Shown here piece by piece: positions 13,476 through 40,992 of a stretch of DNA of 64,000 bases. The position numbers and the translations under genes are program-made. This stretch comes from Nitrospirota bacterium. GTDB taxonomy: Bacteria; Nitrospirota; Thermodesulfovibrionia; Thermodesulfovibrionales; Dissulfurispiraceae. The notes beneath the pieces are model-generated. The model had not been told where the DNA came from and did not search any database. It saw nothing but the letters and a program-made list of their open reading frames with translations. Position 1 is the first letter of the stretch. Each line of letters opens with the position of its first letter. Location: contig JAMCVZ010000037.1 in assembly GCA_023476565.1 (NCBI GenBank), forward strand, positions 1 through 64,000, given 5' to 3'.

Positions 13476-13568
13476 CCCTTTTCGGTAACCCTGCCACCAT
13501 AGGCTGCATCCTGCCCTTAGGTTGTCGGCTTTGCGTCCCACCCTTTCGGATGGTTTGCCTTTTCGATA
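13476..13568 (-). ncRNA. Cyclic-di-GMP-I (GEMM-I) riboswitch in the HU leader
   Basis: Reading the minus strand, the hallmarks of the GEMM-I aptamer occur in order: GGCAAACC (13559-13552), a CCGAAAGGG hairpin, GGGACGCAAAGCC, CCTAAGG, a second stem around TGCAGCC...GGTGGC, and closing GGGTTACCG (13491-13483). This closely follows the Vibrio Vc2 aptamer layout, including the GAAA tetraloop and its receptor. The HU start is about 205 bases downstream. The stretch between contains further GNRA-capped hairpins (ATGCG-GCAA-CGCAT, GAGC-GAAA-GCTC) but no clear terminator, so control may be at translation or RNA stability. Confidence 0.93.
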
Positions 13569-13595
13569 AGGACTACTGCTTTTTAAAACTGGATA

Positions 13596-29507: not shown

Positions 29508-30818
29508 ATGATTAAAGGGAAAAAAGAGCCGGTGACGGGGCTTGTTATTCATTGCGCACTCCTCACGGCGTTGCTCCTCGGCTTTATCGGTAACGCCCGT
29601 GCTGCGGACGGCGCCCTGAGCCTTCAGGATCTGATCAACGAGGTGGAGAACAACCATGAAGTCCTCTCCTCCGAAGCACGGGCACTGGCCTCCACCTACC
29701 GGGTCCCGCAGGCCGGGAGCCTTCCTGACCCGATGTTCATGTTCGGCTACCAGAATGAGGGATGGAAACAATATACCTATGGAAAAGCGCAAGGCGCCCA
29801 GTGGATGTATTCCGCGTCCCAGATGTTCCCTTTTCCGGGGAAGCGGGCGCTCAAGGGAGAGATGGCCTCAAAGGATGCCGAAAGCCTCGGGGCGCTGCAT
29901 AACGCCGCAAAGCTAAGGATCATCGCCCGGGTCAAAGAGCTCTACTACGACCTTTTCTTTACATATAAAAACATCGACCTCATTAAAGACAGGACGATAC
30001 TTTTCTCACGGGTTGAGGATGCGGCCCTTGCCAGATACTCGACAGGGATGGCCCCGCAGCAGGAAGTCATCATGGCGCAGACGGAGAAGTACATGCTCCT
30101 CGAAAAAGAGGAGATGCTGAAACAGAAAGTACAGTCGCTGGAAGCCATGCTTAACGCCACCGTGGGGAGGGACGTGAATGCCCCCCTCGGAAGGCCTGCT
30201 GAGGTGCTTGCCGCTCCGTACGCCCGCAGTATGGATGAATTGATTCACCTGGCATACCTGAATTCCCCCGAGATCCGCTCCAGGGAGAAGATGGCCGCCT
30301 CGGCGGAAGTGAAGGTAAAGATGGCGCAAAAGGAGTATTATCCCGACTTCACCGTTGCTGCAAGCCTCTTTAAAAGGAAAGGGGAATTCGAAGACATGTG
30401 GAGCCTTACCACCACCATTAACATCCCCCTCTACTACAGGACGAAACAGCGGCAGGCCGTCCATGAGGCCGAGGCGTCCCTTTCCGAGGCGAGGCATGAG
30501 CTTGAGGGGGCCCGCTCTATGCTCTCCTCAAGCATACGGGATAATTTCTCCATGTTCAAAACAACAGAGAGGCTTATGGATTTATATAAAAGCGGTCTGA
30601 TCCCCAAAGCATACCAGGATTTTGAACTGGCGCTTTCAGGATATGTAACGGGCAAGGTTGAAGCCATAACGACGATATCGCGGCTCAAAACGATCCTCGA
30701 CCTGGAGATTTCATACTGGAATCAATTTGCGGAAAGGGAAAAGGCGATTGCACGGCTTGAGGCGTTAACAGGAATAACAGACTCCACATCAGGGGATAAC
30801 AAAAATGAAAAGAAATAA
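29508..30818 (+). CDS. Outer membrane efflux protein (CusC/TolC family)
   Basis: This 436-residue protein has a signal peptide (about 1-30) and two OEP repeats of long helices (about 60-220 and 235-420), as in the outer membrane channels of RND pumps. SLPDPMFMFGYQNEG near residue 70 is typical of heavy-metal CusC/CzcC-type members. It starts after AAGGAGG. It overlaps the adaptor gene by 14 bases, so channel, adaptor and pump are coupled. Confidence 0.88.
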   Translation: MIKGKKEPVTGLVIHCALLTALLLGFIGNARAADGALSLQDLINEVENNHEVLSSEARALASTYRVPQAGSLPDPMFMFGYQNEGWKQYTYGKAQGAQWMYSASQMFPFPGKRALKGEMASKDAESLGALHNAAKLRIIARVKELYYDLFFTYKNIDLIKDRTILFSRVEDAALARYSTGMAPQQEVIMAQTEKYMLLEKEEMLKQKVQSLEAMLNATVGRDVNAPLGRPAEVLAAPYARSMDELIHLAYLNSPEIRSREKMAASAEVKVKMAQKEYYPDFTVAASLFKRKGEFEDMWSLTTTINIPLYYRTKQRQAVHEAEASLSEARHELEGARSMLSSSIRDNFSMFKTTERLMDLYKSGLIPKAYQDFELALSGYVTGKVEAITTISRLKTILDLEISYWNQFAEREKAIARLEALTGITDSTSGDNKNEKK

Positions 30819-32052
30819 TCTGATAATCGGCGCCGCATTGGTTTTGATTTCAGCACTCCTCTTTTTCAGCTTTTCGAAAGCAGGTTCCGGTCTGCTGCAA
30901 AAGTTTTCAAAAGACAAGTCCTCACCGGTGGCGCAGGCGCAAACAGCCCCGGGCGGACATGCAGGCCATGGGGGTGGCGCCCCCCCTCCACCCCAGCCGG
31001 AGACAAAGCCCGAGGCTAAGCCGGAGCAGACAGCCGAAGAAGCGCCGACAGTCGAGATCCCGTCTGACAAGCAGCAGTTGATAGGGGTCAAAATTGCTAC
31101 GGCAGCGGTGCGGCCTCTTCGGAAGATCATCAGAACAGTAGGACGTATCGAGTACGATGAGAAAAAGCTTGCCACTGTCAACACCAAGATTGAAGGCTGG
31201 ATCGAAAAGCTCTATGTGGATTATACGGGCAAGTATGTAAAAAAAGGTGAGCCGCTTGCTGAAGTTTACAGCCCCGAGCTCTATGCTACCCAGCAGGAAT
31301 ACCTCAACGTAGTCAAATGGACGCAGCAGAGCAAGAGTGTAAAAGAAGAACGTGTGAGCGCACTGCTCTCCAAAGATGCGGAAGCGGTGCTCGAGGCGGC
31401 AAAGCAGAGGCTGAAACTCTGGGATATATCGGAGTCCCAGATCAAGAAGATAGAGGAAAGCGGAAAGCCCATCAGGACTTTGACGCTCTACAGCCCGGTA
31501 AGCGGGTATGTCCTGCAGAAAATGGTGGTGCAGGGGATGCGGGTGATGCCCGGAGAGAAACTCTTCGACGTTGCCGACCTCTCGACAATATGGATCATTT
31601 CCGATATCTATGAATATGAGCTGCCGCTGATAAAGCCGGGGCAGACGGCAATGATCAGCCTGAGCTATTTCCCCGGCAAAGAATGGGCGTCCCGTATCGA
31701 TTATGTCTACCCTACCCTTGCAGGCGATACAAGGACGGCCAAAGTACGGTTCACCATCCCCAATCCGGGGGGGCAGCTCAAGCCCCAGATGTTCACCAAC
31801 GTTGAGGTAAAGGTCAATCTCGGCAGCAGGTTGGCCGTCCCTGAAGAGGCTGTCATCGACACAGGGGTCCGCCAGATAGTCTATGTGGACAAGGGCGATG
31901 GATATTTTGAGCCGCGGGAGGTTACTGCCGGCGTCAGGGCCGATGGCATGGTGGAAATCACAAAGGGATTGAAGGCCGGGGAGAAGGTCTCATCCGCAGC
32001 CAACTTCCTCATCGACTCGGAATCACGGCTGAAAGGCGTTGTAAAGCAATGA
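30805..32052 (+). CDS. cusB: Periplasmic adaptor of HME-RND pump (CusB-like)
   Basis: This 415-residue protein has an N-terminal anchor (about 5-24). A linker rich in His, Gly and Pro (HAGHGGGAPPPP) follows, then the CusB-type core: IGVKIATAAVRPLRKIIRTVGRIEYDE, the barrel-sandwich lipoyl halves (IEGWIEKLYVDYTGKYVKKGEPL), the helical hairpin (about 150-195) and GMRVMPGEKLFDVADLSTIWI. It connects the inner membrane pump to the outer channel. The stop overlaps the pump start (ATGA). The metal is likely Cu(I)/Ag(I), by similarity. Confidence 0.9.
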   Translation: MKRNNLIIGAALVLISALLFFSFSKAGSGLLQKFSKDKSSPVAQAQTAPGGHAGHGGGAPPPPQPETKPEAKPEQTAEEAPTVEIPSDKQQLIGVKIATAAVRPLRKIIRTVGRIEYDEKKLATVNTKIEGWIEKLYVDYTGKYVKKGEPLAEVYSPELYATQQEYLNVVKWTQQSKSVKEERVSALLSKDAEAVLEAAKQRLKLWDISESQIKKIEESGKPIRTLTLYSPVSGYVLQKMVVQGMRVMPGEKLFDVADLSTIWIISDIYEYELPLIKPGQTAMISLSYFPGKEWASRIDYVYPTLAGDTRTAKVRFTIPNPGGQLKPQMFTNVEVKVNLGSRLAVPEEAVIDTGVRQIVYVDKGDGYFEPREVTAGVRADGMVEITKGLKAGEKVSSAANFLIDSESRLKGVVKQ

Positions 32053-35000
32053 TCGCACGGATAATCGAGTACAGCGCCAGGAACAAGTTCATCATCTTCC
32101 TGCTGGTTTTTTTCCTTGCTGCCTGGGGGATATATGCGCTAAAGAGGACTCCGCTTGACGCTATCCCGGACTTAAGCGACACCCAGGTAATCATCTATAC
32201 GGAATGGCCGGGCAGGAGCCCTGATCTTGTCGAAGACCAGATAACCTACCCTATCACCTCGACCCTCCTTGCAGCGCCCAAGGTACAGGCCGTGCGCGGA
32301 TTCTCCTATCTCGGCAGCTCGTTCATTTACGTCATCTTCGAAGAAGGCACGAATATCTACTGGGCCCGGAGCAGGGTGCTCGAATACCTCCAGTCGGTCA
32401 GGAGCAAGATACCCGCTGACGTCAATCCGGTGCTCGGCCCTGATGCCACGAGCGTCGGCTGGGGTTTCAGCTATGCAGTGGTGGATGAAACAGGCGGGCA
32501 TGACCTTTCGCAACTGCGCTCCATCCAGGACTGGAACCTGAAGCTCGCCATCGAGAGCGTCCCCGGCGTCTCCCAGGTCGCCAGCATCGGCGGCTTTGTA
32601 AAACAGTACCAGATAACGCTCGACCCCAACCGGCTCCTGGCATACAACATCCCCATCACAAAGGTAATGGAGGCCATTCGAAAGAGTAACAAGGACGTCG
32701 AAGGCAGGGTGCTCGAGTTTTCGGGTATCGAGTACATGGTAAGGGGCAGGGGCTACATCAAGGATATAAAAGACATCGAGAATGTCGCGGTCGGCACAAA
32801 TGGAAACGGCACTCCTATCCTCATCAGGGACATAGCAAACGTGCAGCTCGGCCCCGAGATAAGGAGGGGGCTTGCGGAGCTTGACGGCAAAGGCGAAGTT
32901 GCAGGAGGCATTGTCGTTATCAGGTTCGGGGAGAATGTCCTCAATGTTATAGAAAAGGTCAAAGAGAAGATCAAAAACAATATCACGCCGAGCCTTCCCA
33001 AAGGGGTAAAGATCGTGACCACCTACGACAGGTCGGACCTGATACACCGCTCGATCGACACCCTCAAGGAAGAGATTCTAAGGCTCTCGATAGCGGTAAG
33101 CGCGGTCTGCATCATCTTTCTTTTCCATCTGCCGAGCGCCCTTGTGGTCATCCTTACATTGCCGATCGCGATCCTCATATCGTTTATCATGATGTATTAC
33201 ATCGGCGTGACCTCGAATATCATGAGCTTAAGCGGCATCGCCATCGCCATCGGCGCTATGGTGGACGCCTCGATCATCATGGTCGAAAACGCGCACAAGA
33301 AGCTGGAGGACTGGGAACACCACGGCAGGCCCGGCAGACGTATTGATGTCATCATCGATGCGGCCAAAGAAGTGGGGCCGTCGCTCTTTTTCTCCCTGCT
33401 GGTCATCACGGTCGGCTTCCTTCCGGTGTTCACGCTGCAGGCGCAGGCCGGCAGGCTCTTCAAACCGCTGGCTTATACGAAGACCTTTGCCATGCTGTTT
33501 TCATCGTTCCTCGCCGTAACGCTGACCCCGGTGCTTATGACACTTTTTATTCATGAAAAGACGCCGTTTTTAAGCAGGATACCCGTTATCAAGTACCTCT
33601 TTACCGTATACCCGGAGGAGCGGCACCCGGTAAGCATGCTGCTCCATAAGCTCTACGAGCCGGTGGCAAGGTTCGCCTTGAGATTCAAGTGGGGGGTTAT
33701 CATTGCTGCGCTCATTGTCATGGCGCTGACCGCCTATCCGTTTTTAAAACTCGGCTCCGAATTCATGCCGCCCCTCTATGAGGGCACGCTCTTTTACATG
33801 CCGGTGACCGTTCCCGCGGCCTCCATCACCGAGGCTGCGCAGCTCCTTAGCCTCCAGGACAAGATTCTCAAGAAAATCCCCGAAGTCTCCCAGGTCTTCG
33901 GGAAGGCTGGCCGCGCCGAAACAGCCACCGACCCCGCGCCCCTTGAGATGTTCGAGACCGTGGTCAACCTCAAGCCCGAGTCCCGGTGGCGACCGGGAAT
34001 GACCGTCGAAAATCTTAAAAACGAAATGAACGACGCGCTCACCATACCGGGGGTGGCAAACTCGTTCACCATGCCCATCAAAGCGCGTATCGACATGCTC
34101 TCCACGGGGATAAGGACCCCGGTCGGGATCAAGGTCCTGGGGCCGAACCTCGATGAGATCGCAAAAATCGGGGAAGGGATAGAAAACGCGGTCAAGGATA
34201 TCCCCGGCACAAGGAGCGCGTATGCGGAAAGGGTGACAACCGGCTATTTTCTGGACATTGCCGTAAAGCGCGAAGAAGCCGCCCGGTACGGCCTGTCTGT
34301 CGATGATGTCCAGGAAGTGATACAGTCCGCCATCGGGGGGATGAACCTCACCGTTACCGTTGAAGGAAGGCAGCGCTACCCGGTCAATGTGAGGTATGCG
34401 AGAGAGCTCAGGAGTGACATCGACAGGCTCAAAAGAGTGCTCGTGCCGGTCATGATGGGAAGCGCCCAGCCCGCCGGAAGCGGGGGCATGCCTGCCGGCC
34501 CCGGCAGAGACCCCGGGTCTACAAGCCCCATTTCGTTCGCCTCCTCACAGTCTGTGCTGCAGGTGCCTCTTGAGGAGCTTGCCGATATCAGGATCGTCAG
34601 GGGCCCCACGGGAATCAAGAGCGAAGAGGGCCTCCTCACCGCGTATGTCTATGTCGATTTCTCGGGCAGGGACGTGGGCGGTTATGTGGCTGACGCCAAA
34701 AAAAAGGTCGCCTCGCTGAAAATCCCCGAAGGCTACCGTCTTTCGTGGAGCGGTGAATACGAGTACCTCGTCAAAACATACGAACGGCTGAAGTTCGTAA
34801 TCCCGCTGACTGCGCTTATCATTTTTGTGCTCATCTTCATGAACACAAAATCGGTTACCAAAACGATCATTGTGCTCCTTGCTGTTCCGTTCTCCCTCGT
34901 AGGGTCGTTCTGGTTCCTCTATTTCCTCAATTACAACATGAGCATTGCCGTATGGGTGGGCATAATCGCCCTTGCGGGCCTCGATGCGGAAACAGGCGTG

Positions 35001-35306
35001 GTCATGCTCCTCTATCTTGAGCTGGCCCATGAGAAATGGCTGAAAGAGGGCAAGCTGAACAGCATCAATGCCCTCAAGGAATCGATCATGTACGGCGCTG
35101 TCAAAAGAATACGTCCGAAGATCATGACAGTAAGCGTCATCCTTGCAGGTCTTATCCCCATCATGTTCAGCCACGGAGCCGGTTCGGATGTTATGAAGAG
35201 GATTGCAGCGCCCATGGTCGGAGGGGTCGTCACGTCAACAATCCTTGAACTGATAATCTACCCGGCGATTTACATGATATGGAAAGGAAGGGAGTTCAAG
35301 CAATAA
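32049..35306 (+). CDS. cusA: Heavy-metal efflux RND transporter (CusA/CzcA family)
   Basis: This 1085-residue protein has the RND layout of 12 helices with two large periplasmic loops. HME signatures include the N-terminal TPLDAIPDLSDTQVIIYTEWPGRSP block, AIGAMVDASIIMVENAHK (about 405) and GLDAETGVVMLLYLELA (about 980). It expels monovalent copper or silver (or divalent cations) with proton import. About 35 extra residues rich in Gly, Ser, Pro and Met (about 800-835) sit in the second loop just before the PLEELADIRI strand, where relatives have a short turn. It is the core of the operon. Confidence 0.93.
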   Translation: MIARIIEYSARNKFIIFLLVFFLAAWGIYALKRTPLDAIPDLSDTQVIIYTEWPGRSPDLVEDQITYPITSTLLAAPKVQAVRGFSYLGSSFIYVIFEEGTNIYWARSRVLEYLQSVRSKIPADVNPVLGPDATSVGWGFSYAVVDETGGHDLSQLRSIQDWNLKLAIESVPGVSQVASIGGFVKQYQITLDPNRLLAYNIPITKVMEAIRKSNKDVEGRVLEFSGIEYMVRGRGYIKDIKDIENVAVGTNGNGTPILIRDIANVQLGPEIRRGLAELDGKGEVAGGIVVIRFGENVLNVIEKVKEKIKNNITPSLPKGVKIVTTYDRSDLIHRSIDTLKEEILRLSIAVSAVCIIFLFHLPSALVVILTLPIAILISFIMMYYIGVTSNIMSLSGIAIAIGAMVDASIIMVENAHKKLEDWEHHGRPGRRIDVIIDAAKEVGPSLFFSLLVITVGFLPVFTLQAQAGRLFKPLAYTKTFAMLFSSFLAVTLTPVLMTLFIHEKTPFLSRIPVIKYLFTVYPEERHPVSMLLHKLYEPVARFALRFKWGVIIAALIVMALTAYPFLKLGSEFMPPLYEGTLFYMPVTVPAASITEAAQLLSLQDKILKKIPEVSQVFGKAGRAETATDPAPLEMFETVVNLKPESRWRPGMTVENLKNEMNDALTIPGVANSFTMPIKARIDMLSTGIRTPVGIKVLGPNLDEIAKIGEGIENAVKDIPGTRSAYAERVTTGYFLDIAVKREEAARYGLSVDDVQEVIQSAIGGMNLTVTVEGRQRYPVNVRYARELRSDIDRLKRVLVPVMMGSAQPAGSGGMPAGPGRDPGSTSPISFASSQSVLQVPLEELADIRIVRGPTGIKSEEGLLTAYVYVDFSGRDVGGYVADAKKKVASLKIPEGYRLSWSGEYEYLVKTYERLKFVIPLTALIIFVLIFMNTKSVTKTIIVLLAVPFSLVGSFWFLYFLNYNMSIAVWVGIIALAGLDAETGVVMLLYLELAHEKWLKEGKLNSINALKESIMYGAVKRIRPKIMTVSVILAGLIPIMFSHGAGSDVMKRIAAPMVGGVVTSTILELIIYPAIYMIWKGREFKQ

Positions 35307-35319
35307 AAGGAGGATAAAG

Positions 35320-35739
35320 ATGTTTAAAAAAACAGCAGTCGTTCAAATTGCAGTGGTAGCTGTCTTCGGGACAAGCAGTCTCTCCTTTGCTGTGATGCAT
35401 GAGGAGAGTAATAATCAGCATAGTAGTAATCAGGAGGCAACCCACCAGGAACACAACGACAACAGGACAGTACCCGAACAGGCAAACACTGCCGGGCAAG
35501 GGAAAAGGGTAGAGGAGGTTGGGAATAAAGTCTGTCCGGTAAGCGGCGAAACGATTGATGAAAAGGCCAAAGAAACGTACGAATATAAGGGAAAAATCTA
35601 TAACTTCTGCTGTCCTATGTGTATTGAAGAATTCAAGAAAGACCCCGGGAAATATATTGAGAAAATGGAAAAAGAAAAAGCGGAAGAAAGCAAACACGAG
35701 CATTCAACTCAGGAAGAACACCACCATCACACTCATTGA
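35320..35739 (+). CDS. Secreted YHS/TRASH-type metal-binding protein
   Basis: This 139-residue protein has a signal peptide (about 1-22) and a His/Gln/Asn-rich linker. A YHS-like domain follows (about 68-115: KVCPVSG...YEYKGKIYNFCCPMCIEEFKKDPGKYI), then a His-rich end (HEHSTQEEHHHHTH). The Cys residues CP, CC and CPMC suit Cu or Zn binding. It directly follows the CusA gene and is probably a periplasmic metal chaperone or sensor for the pump. Confidence 0.85.
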   Translation: MFKKTAVVQIAVVAVFGTSSLSFAVMHEESNNQHSSNQEATHQEHNDNRTVPEQANTAGQGKRVEEVGNKVCPVSGETIDEKAKETYEYKGKIYNFCCPMCIEEFKKDPGKYIEKMEKEKAEESKHEHSTQEEHHHHTH

Positions 35740-39700: not shown

Positions 39701-40273
39701 AAAAGTTAGTACAGTCCCTTACCTGAGCGTTGCATAACTGAATATCTTAGATGAGGAGCCAGAAATGCAATTGCCTTCCGTTTGGTTTAATGTGGCACCC
39801 CGTGCCTTTATTTCGTCTTCTGGATTTTTGCACAACCTTATTGTATCCAAGCTGGAAGCCTTTTCACAAGGCTCCATTTCCTTTTATATATCTGGTGGTT
39901 TCCTCAATAAACTGGAAGTTGTCCTATTTGCGGTATGGCACTTGAGCCAAAATCCGCCCTTGAGGAAGAAGAAAACCCTGAACTTATTGATATGACTGCG
40001 GGCATTCTTTATCCATTCTGGGGCATCCTGCTCAGTCCTATTTTTGCTGCTGCTGCAATGAGCTTCAGTTCGGTGTCGGTTGTGGGAAATGCACTCAGGT
40101 TGCGAAGGGCGAAGATATGAAGACCAAACACATTATCCCAACAGTTGTCCTCCTGCCTTGGGGAAAAACTTTGAAAGAAGGACAAATCTGAACCGTTTAC
40201 GCTTTTTAAACATGCTCAATATTTTATCATGTTTAAAGATGCTTTTACACGTGAGGATAACGCCTTCAGCCCT
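39701..40273. other. Gene-poor region containing a copA remnant
   Basis: This 573-base stretch has no intact gene. The only recognisable part is the C-terminal end of a copper ATPase (39992-40120), listed separately. Short open frames at 39751-39995 have no family resemblance and no ribosome binding site. The stretch looks like decayed DNA after loss of a metal-transport gene. Confidence 0.6.
39992..40120 (+). pseudogene. C-terminal remnant of a copper P-type ATPase (copA)
   Basis: About 42 residues match the last two transmembrane helices and tail of CopA-type ATPases: [38 protein letters not shown]. The [17 protein letters not shown] end is a hallmark of the family. The rest of the gene (about 700 residues) is missing, and the sequence upstream in this frame does not resemble it. 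It is a relic near the Cus-type efflux locus and indicates past loss or rearrangement. Confidence 0.88.
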
Positions 40274-40867
40274 CTATACCCCTGCATGCAAGGGGATTGC
40301 CGAGTACGGCTCTGCGCGGCGGGTCCACTCGCTCCGCGGGAATCCCGTTTTGAGCGTATCATATGCCCTGCGCAGGGCCGACGCATCGTGTGCACTCTTG
40401 TACTCAGCCACCCCAAGATAAAAGACCGCCTCAGGAGTTGGTCCTGCATCGGGATACAGATCGATAACGGTCTCGAGGGCCTTGATAGCCTCCCTGAAGC
40501 GATTCCTGTCAAAAAATACCTTTGCCCTGCCAAGACCGAGGTGCGGGAGCATATCATCAACAGGGACGTATCCCACCATCCTGTGGTGCTCCCTGCCCTC
40601 TTTGTCATGGATAATGAGGGTCGGGGTCCATGTGATAATAAACTGTCTCATGAGCTCGGTCGGTTTATCAAAAAAGCACCGGCTTTTCACAGGAATAAAA
40701 TAGTCCTCTATAAACTTCTGCACTCTCTCATTCGAATACGGACCCGCATTCATCGCTGCGCAGCCCGTTCACCCCTCTAACCAGAAATCCTGGTAAATCG
40801 GCTTGCCCTCGTTCTTTGCCCTCTTTATTGCCTCGTTGAAATCTCTTTCCCATTGTATCTCCGCCAT
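40274..40867 (-). CDS. Thioredoxin-like protein, probable selenoprotein (UGA at 40771)
   Basis: Read through one UGA, this is a 197-residue protein starting at ATG 40867 behind AAGGAGGT. The N-terminus is a thioredoxin-like fold of the DsbD-C/YyaL type: FNEAIKRAKNEGKPIYQDFWLEG, then the redox motif. The first Cys of CxxC is a TGA codon (40771-40769, residue 33), giving U33-T-G-C36. The chain continues in frame with AAMNAGPYSNERVQKFIEDYFIPVK and a cis-Pro region (TWTPTLIIHDKEG). The C-terminal 80 residues look like a TPR pair. A hairpin (40751-40734, 7-bp stem, GGUC loop) begins 17 bases after the UGA, as expected for a SECIS element. A second start at 40753 would lack the redox motif. Confidence 0.8.
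40734..40751 (-). promoter_or_regulatory. Candidate bacterial SECIS hairpin
   Basis: On the minus strand GAATGCG and CGTATTC pair (one G-U) around a GGTC loop. The loop starts 24 bases after the UGA. A GGU in the apical loop is also the key feature of the Escherichia coli fdhF SECIS. A longer competing hairpin (11 pairs with one bulged G, loop GCGATGAA) starts right after the UGA. Confidence 0.6.
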
Positions 40868-40992
40868 AGCCGTATACCTCCTTTTGATTTTTACCGCCTA
40901 CCTTTCTTTATCATGAAAAAGAGGGGAAGTCAAATGTAGCCGGGAAAAACAGTCCGGGAAGTGCGGAAGTACAAAAAAGCGGAAGATTAATT

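Follow-up and report, generated by a model that had tools for sequence, protein, structure and literature searches.

A thioredoxin-fold gene of Nitrospirota with an in-frame UGA very probably encodes a selenoprotein with a TPR-like C-terminal part

In selenoproteins with a thioredoxin fold and a UxxC motif, selenocysteine (Sec) is the attacking residue and cysteine the resolving one. Such proteins are already known, among them a thiol:disulfide interchange selenoprotein with a PF13098 domain and a UxxC motif (Kryukov and Gladyshev 2004), which is included in a recent catalogue (PMC13188914). The VPGUxxT selenoproteins, described by the profiles NF041382 and NF041383 of 287-349 positions, instead carry UxxT. 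The thioredoxin fold is also found in the gamma domain of DsbD, which forms the periplasmic terminus of a membrane protein, and in CnoX (YbbN), in which an SXXC or CXXC thioredoxin domain without Sec is followed by TPR helices.

The locus described here lies in a window of 64,000 nt, the whole stretch of DNA analysed, taken from a draft metagenome-assembled genome (MAG) of a Nitrospirota bacterium. The same window contains a c-di-GMP-I riboswitch at 13481-13569 on the minus strand (68 bits) and, on the plus strand at 29508-35739, an apparent heavy-metal efflux cluster consisting, by ORF reading, of an outer-membrane factor, a membrane-fusion protein, a CusA-like RND pump and a small CPVSG/CCPMC protein. 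The features of the gene under study are as follows.

40274..40867, minus strand: probable selenoprotein gene, 197 aa with Sec33, plus stop (read-through translation; alignments of full-length homologues)
40876..40883, minus strand: ribosome-binding site AAGGAGGT (sequence; a similar GGAGG-type site in most relatives with an aligned start)
40769..40771, minus strand: UGA codon read as probable selenocysteine, residue 33 (TGA at the same codon of full-length homologues; TGC in family f24)
40760..40771, minus strand: U-T-G-C at residues 33-36, the redox motif (TGA being written as C, positions 33 and 36 do not vary across 27 homologues)
40734..40751, minus strand: bacterial SECIS-like hairpin of 7 bp with a GGUC loop at 40744-40741 (pairing, recoding, covariation)
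40544..40858, minus strand: thioredoxin-fold domain, residues 4-108, with conserved Trp-Thr-Pro at 80-82 (Pfam PF13098 and PF03190 over cut-off; AF2 model; PDB fold matches; Pro82 invariant)
40298..40531, minus strand: TPR-like helical C-terminal part, residues 113-190 (Pfam TPR_16, TPR_2 and TPR_6 below curated cut-off; AF2 helices)

It is very likely that the in-frame UGA33 encodes Sec and that the gene is a selenoprotein gene, because there is coding on both sides of the UGA, the codon is conserved, Cys replaces it in some relatives, the downstream hairpin covaries, selA, selB and selD are in the genome, and the predicted fold is appropriate. The same evidence, together with the conserved redox context, supports the preliminary description of the gene as a probable selenoprotein, and from the sequence we infer actual insertion of Sec at residue 33. 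The frame from ATG 40867 to TAG 40274 has a single break, the TGA at codon 33 (40771-40769), after which it continues with T-G-C. Sequence and translation therefore confirm the proposal that this frame, with its ribosome-binding site in front, meets TGA at that codon, as well as the proposal that ordinary annotation starts at 40753 and drops the redox motif, the table 11 ORF from that start being 159 aa long. A 183 aa antisense open frame at window positions 40229-40780 on the plus strand exceeds the gene's longest unbroken frame, and gene callers may choose it instead; L018 and L084 are similar.

The read-through product scores 41.9 bits against the Pfam Thioredoxin_2 family (PF13098; cut-off 27), also matches DUF255/DsbH (PF03190) over cut-off, and has matches to TPR_16, TPR_2 and TPR_6 below the curated cut-off, with E-values down to 4e-6. 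An AF2 model built from 27 homologues (pLDDT 96.2, pTM 0.90) has a thioredoxin fold over approximately residues 1-108, followed by TPR-like helices at 113-190. The term 'thioredoxin-like', as originally applied, is incomplete as a description of the protein, which has the TPR-like part as well. Trp6, the UGA residue, Cys36, Pro82 and Gly99 are invariant over the 27 homologues, and the combination of the PF13098 score, invariant C/U33, Cys36 and Pro82, and the modelled fold is that of a PF13098 oxidoreductase. The best PDB match by sequence is of the DsbD gamma/DsbH type (4.8e-7). No signal peptide is visible by eye, which suggests a cytoplasmic location and hence a reductase.

SelB carrying Sec-tRNA-Sec would read UGA33 owing to the hairpin 17 nt downstream, yielding a putatively cytoplasmic enzyme of thioredoxin fold whose active site is Sec-x-x-Cys. 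The selenolate of Sec33 would attack a disulfide or an oxidised thiol and Cys36 would resolve the resulting selenenylsulfide, with Pro82 predicted to line the site, while the C-terminal TPR-like helices would probably hold a client or partner protein. A role as a thiol-disulfide reductase acting on partners held by the TPR-like part is somewhat favoured, both the reductive direction of catalysis and the function of the helices being predictions. Gene neighbourhoods contained no conserved neighbour or partner, and a promoter scan was uninformative.

A variant of this function, which leaves the selenoprotein reading itself unchanged, is that of a Sec-dependent chaperedoxin: by analogy with CnoX, a holdase with its TPR part bound to unfolded clients might protect or reduce their cysteines and pass the clients on to GroEL or DnaK. 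The best PDB fold matches over both domains are indeed YbbN/CnoX structures (3qdn and 3qou), with thioredoxin and TPR parts in the same order, and the Caulobacter CnoX is both a CXXC reductase and a holdase (PMC8129009). However, the TM-scores are 0.40/0.29 at an rmsd of 11 Å, indicating a different domain arrangement, and the thioredoxin domain fits DsbD-gamma better (TMt about 0.76, rmsd 2.1); the TPR part is far shorter than that of CnoX, and a conserved gene neighbour is, as noted, lacking. In a PDB sequence search 3qou was absent at E<=1, and the NCBIfam matches included no YbbN/CnoX model. The protein has not been classed as a chaperedoxin because its domain angle, length and sequence differ from those of YbbN/CnoX; by sequence it is not CnoX, and it is at most chaperedoxin-like in action, a function that appears improbable.

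Among the genes for Sec insertion to which the preliminary description had pointed, selA, selB (split by one frameshift) and selD are present in the genome, and the 73 contigs of the draft yielded no selC, the gene for tRNA-Sec. The selA match scores 614 bits. The two adjacent frames of selB share 84% and 78% identity with selB from a member of the same genus (G362), and the break falls at a run of 10 C at about 1444-1460 of L010 (G000:C47); it may be a homopolymer error or else a genuine slippery or phase-variable site, selB being one open frame in the six relatives examined. The selD gene (L021 1492-2538, G000:C40) is a selenoprotein gene itself, having its own in-frame TGA in the motif CAGUASK, followed by a hairpin of approximately -12 kcal/mol. 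The searches for selC used Rfam (150/269 candidates scored), a pattern and similarity to the G362 gene. Rfam tRNA-Sec matches at 47 bits in the same genome are really tRNA-Ser(UGA), and a tRNA-Cys predicted within selA is spurious. An overlap of selC with selB, reported in some Nitrospirae (PMC8124441), was looked for and not seen. As tRNA-Sec is clear in G362 and in most UGA-bearing relatives, and as several of the 73 contigs end in tRNA genes, the missing gene is likely to reflect an assembly gap.

The coincidence of a missing selC and a split selB in one assembly could also mean that the lineage once inserted Sec but is now losing the machinery, with the protein truncated in this organism alone. 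Against this, neither selA nor the UGA-bearing selD is damaged; selB is broken by a change in the length of a C10 run, as is typical of sequencing error, and each half keeps about 80% identity to its counterpart in the genus relative; and the MAG is 96% complete, with several of its tRNA genes at contig ends, where assemblies break. Such a loss is therefore very unlikely. Across the phylum, selA is found in 174/396 genomes; it accompanies the full-length UGA form in 16/20 genomes and the full-length Cys form of f24 in none of five (p = 0.002, kinship ignored). One of the four UGA-bearing genomes without a selA match, G142, has tRNA-Sec.

The absence of tRNA-Sec from the draft and the frameshift in selB would also suit an ordinary thioredoxin-like gene with CxxC in which the UGA arose by nonsense mutation or through an assembly error; the ORF from 40753 would then be what is left of a pseudogene, or encode a truncated protein. 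Yet two homologues, 65% and 53% identical and from other Nitrospirae MAGs, have TGA at the same codon, and a full-length homologue, with thioredoxin and TPR parts and TGA at this codon, occurs in 20 genomes among 396 of the phylum at approximately 30-66% identity, a distribution that spans several families and classes of independent MAGs with no further internal stop. A search of the order (176 genomes) found exactly one TGA in each of the 20 full-length matches, leaving aside one Cys paralogue in G130, and all full-length homologues found in the Nitrospirota have the single in-frame TGA at this codon, save that paralogue and family f24, five genomes of which have TGC. Purifying selection is evident before the UGA as well as after it, with dN below dS on each side and dN/dS <0.4 where dS could be estimated, dS being saturated upstream in two pairs. 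The recurrence of the codon in the order-wide matches and in divergent homologues of the phylum, along with a hairpin exceeding both slid positions and synonymous recodings, upholds the earlier argument that a chance nonsense mutation is unlikely; we regard mutation or error as hardly credible.

Cys stands in place of Sec in some homologues. On a tree of 44 rows, the distribution of the Sec/Cys label takes three changes, of which at least two are forced by well-supported branches, whereas shuffled labels need 12. The genome G130 has both a Sec protein and a full-length Cys paralogue with CPVC (L103, G130:C10). A shorter, thioredoxin-only subfamily of approximately 115-125 aa (L048, L049, L050, L052, L104-L108) has UGA at the same codon, mostly as SPT-U-x-A-C, and its UGA members have a hairpin similar to that of the full-length form. 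A clade nested within it carries Cys (TGC; CEAC/CEPC), and several genomes with this Cys form, such as G136, G186, G288, G366 and G388, keep selA; the Cys form is therefore not always a consequence of loss of the machinery.

The hairpin GAATGCG-GGTC-CGTATTC (40751-40734, minus strand) comprises 7 bp including one G-U. It was found as first described, with its GGUC loop, 17 nt past the UGA and with the loop 24 nt away, a geometry that complies with the bacterial SECIS rule as quoted in PMC13188914. In isolation it folds to -7.7 kcal/mol, while the minimum-free-energy fold of a 45-nt window is another structure (-15.5 kcal/mol); this competing fold, we infer, pairs bases just past the UGA that the ribosome would cover. 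The position is fixed among the homologues at +21 to +38 from the UGA, with the loop 24 nt away and starting GG or GU. At least 6/7 pairs form in 23/25 TGA members, compared with one to five in Cys members, and the mean over the 25 TGA members is 6.16/7 at this position, as against 4.4 or less at slid positions and 3.2 in TGC members. Pair 22-37 is AU in nine sequences and GC in seven, and pair 24-35 is variously UA, AU or GU; neither the covariation score nor the percentage paired was reached in any of 500 shuffles, in which kinship is not fully removed. Synonymous recodings, to which the same caveat on kinship applies, averaged 4.16 pairs with a maximum of 5.04 in 2000 draws and so stay below the observed pairing, which means that the hairpin is not explained by protein coding alone. 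In L045-L047, UGA members with PG/PD-U-G-G-C, the standard hairpin forms poorly or not at all, and a GGC(U)-GGA-(A/G)GCC hairpin closer to the UGA, seen by eye and in folds, may serve as the SECIS. A variant code or a suppressor tRNA by which the UGA is decoded as Trp, Gly or Cys would fit read-through by itself but can practically be dismissed, given that other genes of the genome are open over their full length under table 11, where UGA is a stop, that homologues have Cys at the position, and that a SECIS-like hairpin, selA, selB and selD are present.

Read as a selenoprotein, the window protein resembles each of the described systems in part. With the PF13098 UxxC selenoprotein it shares the Thioredoxin_2 domain and the motif, but the catalogue names no TPR part for that protein, whereas the present one is a 197-aa combination of thioredoxin and TPR-like domains from Nitrospirota; this comparison is by description only. 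The N-terminal 60 residues align with the VPGUxxT selenoproteins, at 31 bits for the window protein and no more than 44 bits in its family, and many of its homologues likewise have PGU. It is not a member of that family, however, scoring 30.9 bits against a cut-off of 275 and 25.8 against 350, and has UxxC and another C-terminal part. The order of domains is that of CnoX/YbbN, but the thioredoxin domain is DsbD-gamma/DsbH-like; unlike DsbD gamma, with which it has the fold in common, the protein is soluble and combines Sec with TPR helices. A search of plasmids returned one distant thioredoxin. None of the 119 families in the 2026 catalogue (PMC13188914) is a TPR-bearing selenoprotein, no NCBIfam model reaches its cut-off, and no report of a selenoprotein with thioredoxin and TPR domains was found in the open literature, although overlap with the PF13098 family of 2004 is possible. 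A doubtful extension is that a Sec redox centre and a TPR client-holding surface are united in one small chaperedoxin, with Sec the older state in Nitrospirota and changed repeatedly to Cys later; that combination is absent from the listed known selenoproteins. The locus appears to represent a conserved and apparently uncatalogued selenoprotein family, whose redox site routine annotation misses in many Nitrospirota genomes. Its natural set of Sec and Cys enzymes, separated by at least two, or three, switches, bears on why selenium is kept, and its short, position-fixed SECIS, covarying while also coding, is well suited to testing SECIS rules beyond the bacteria that have been studied closely.
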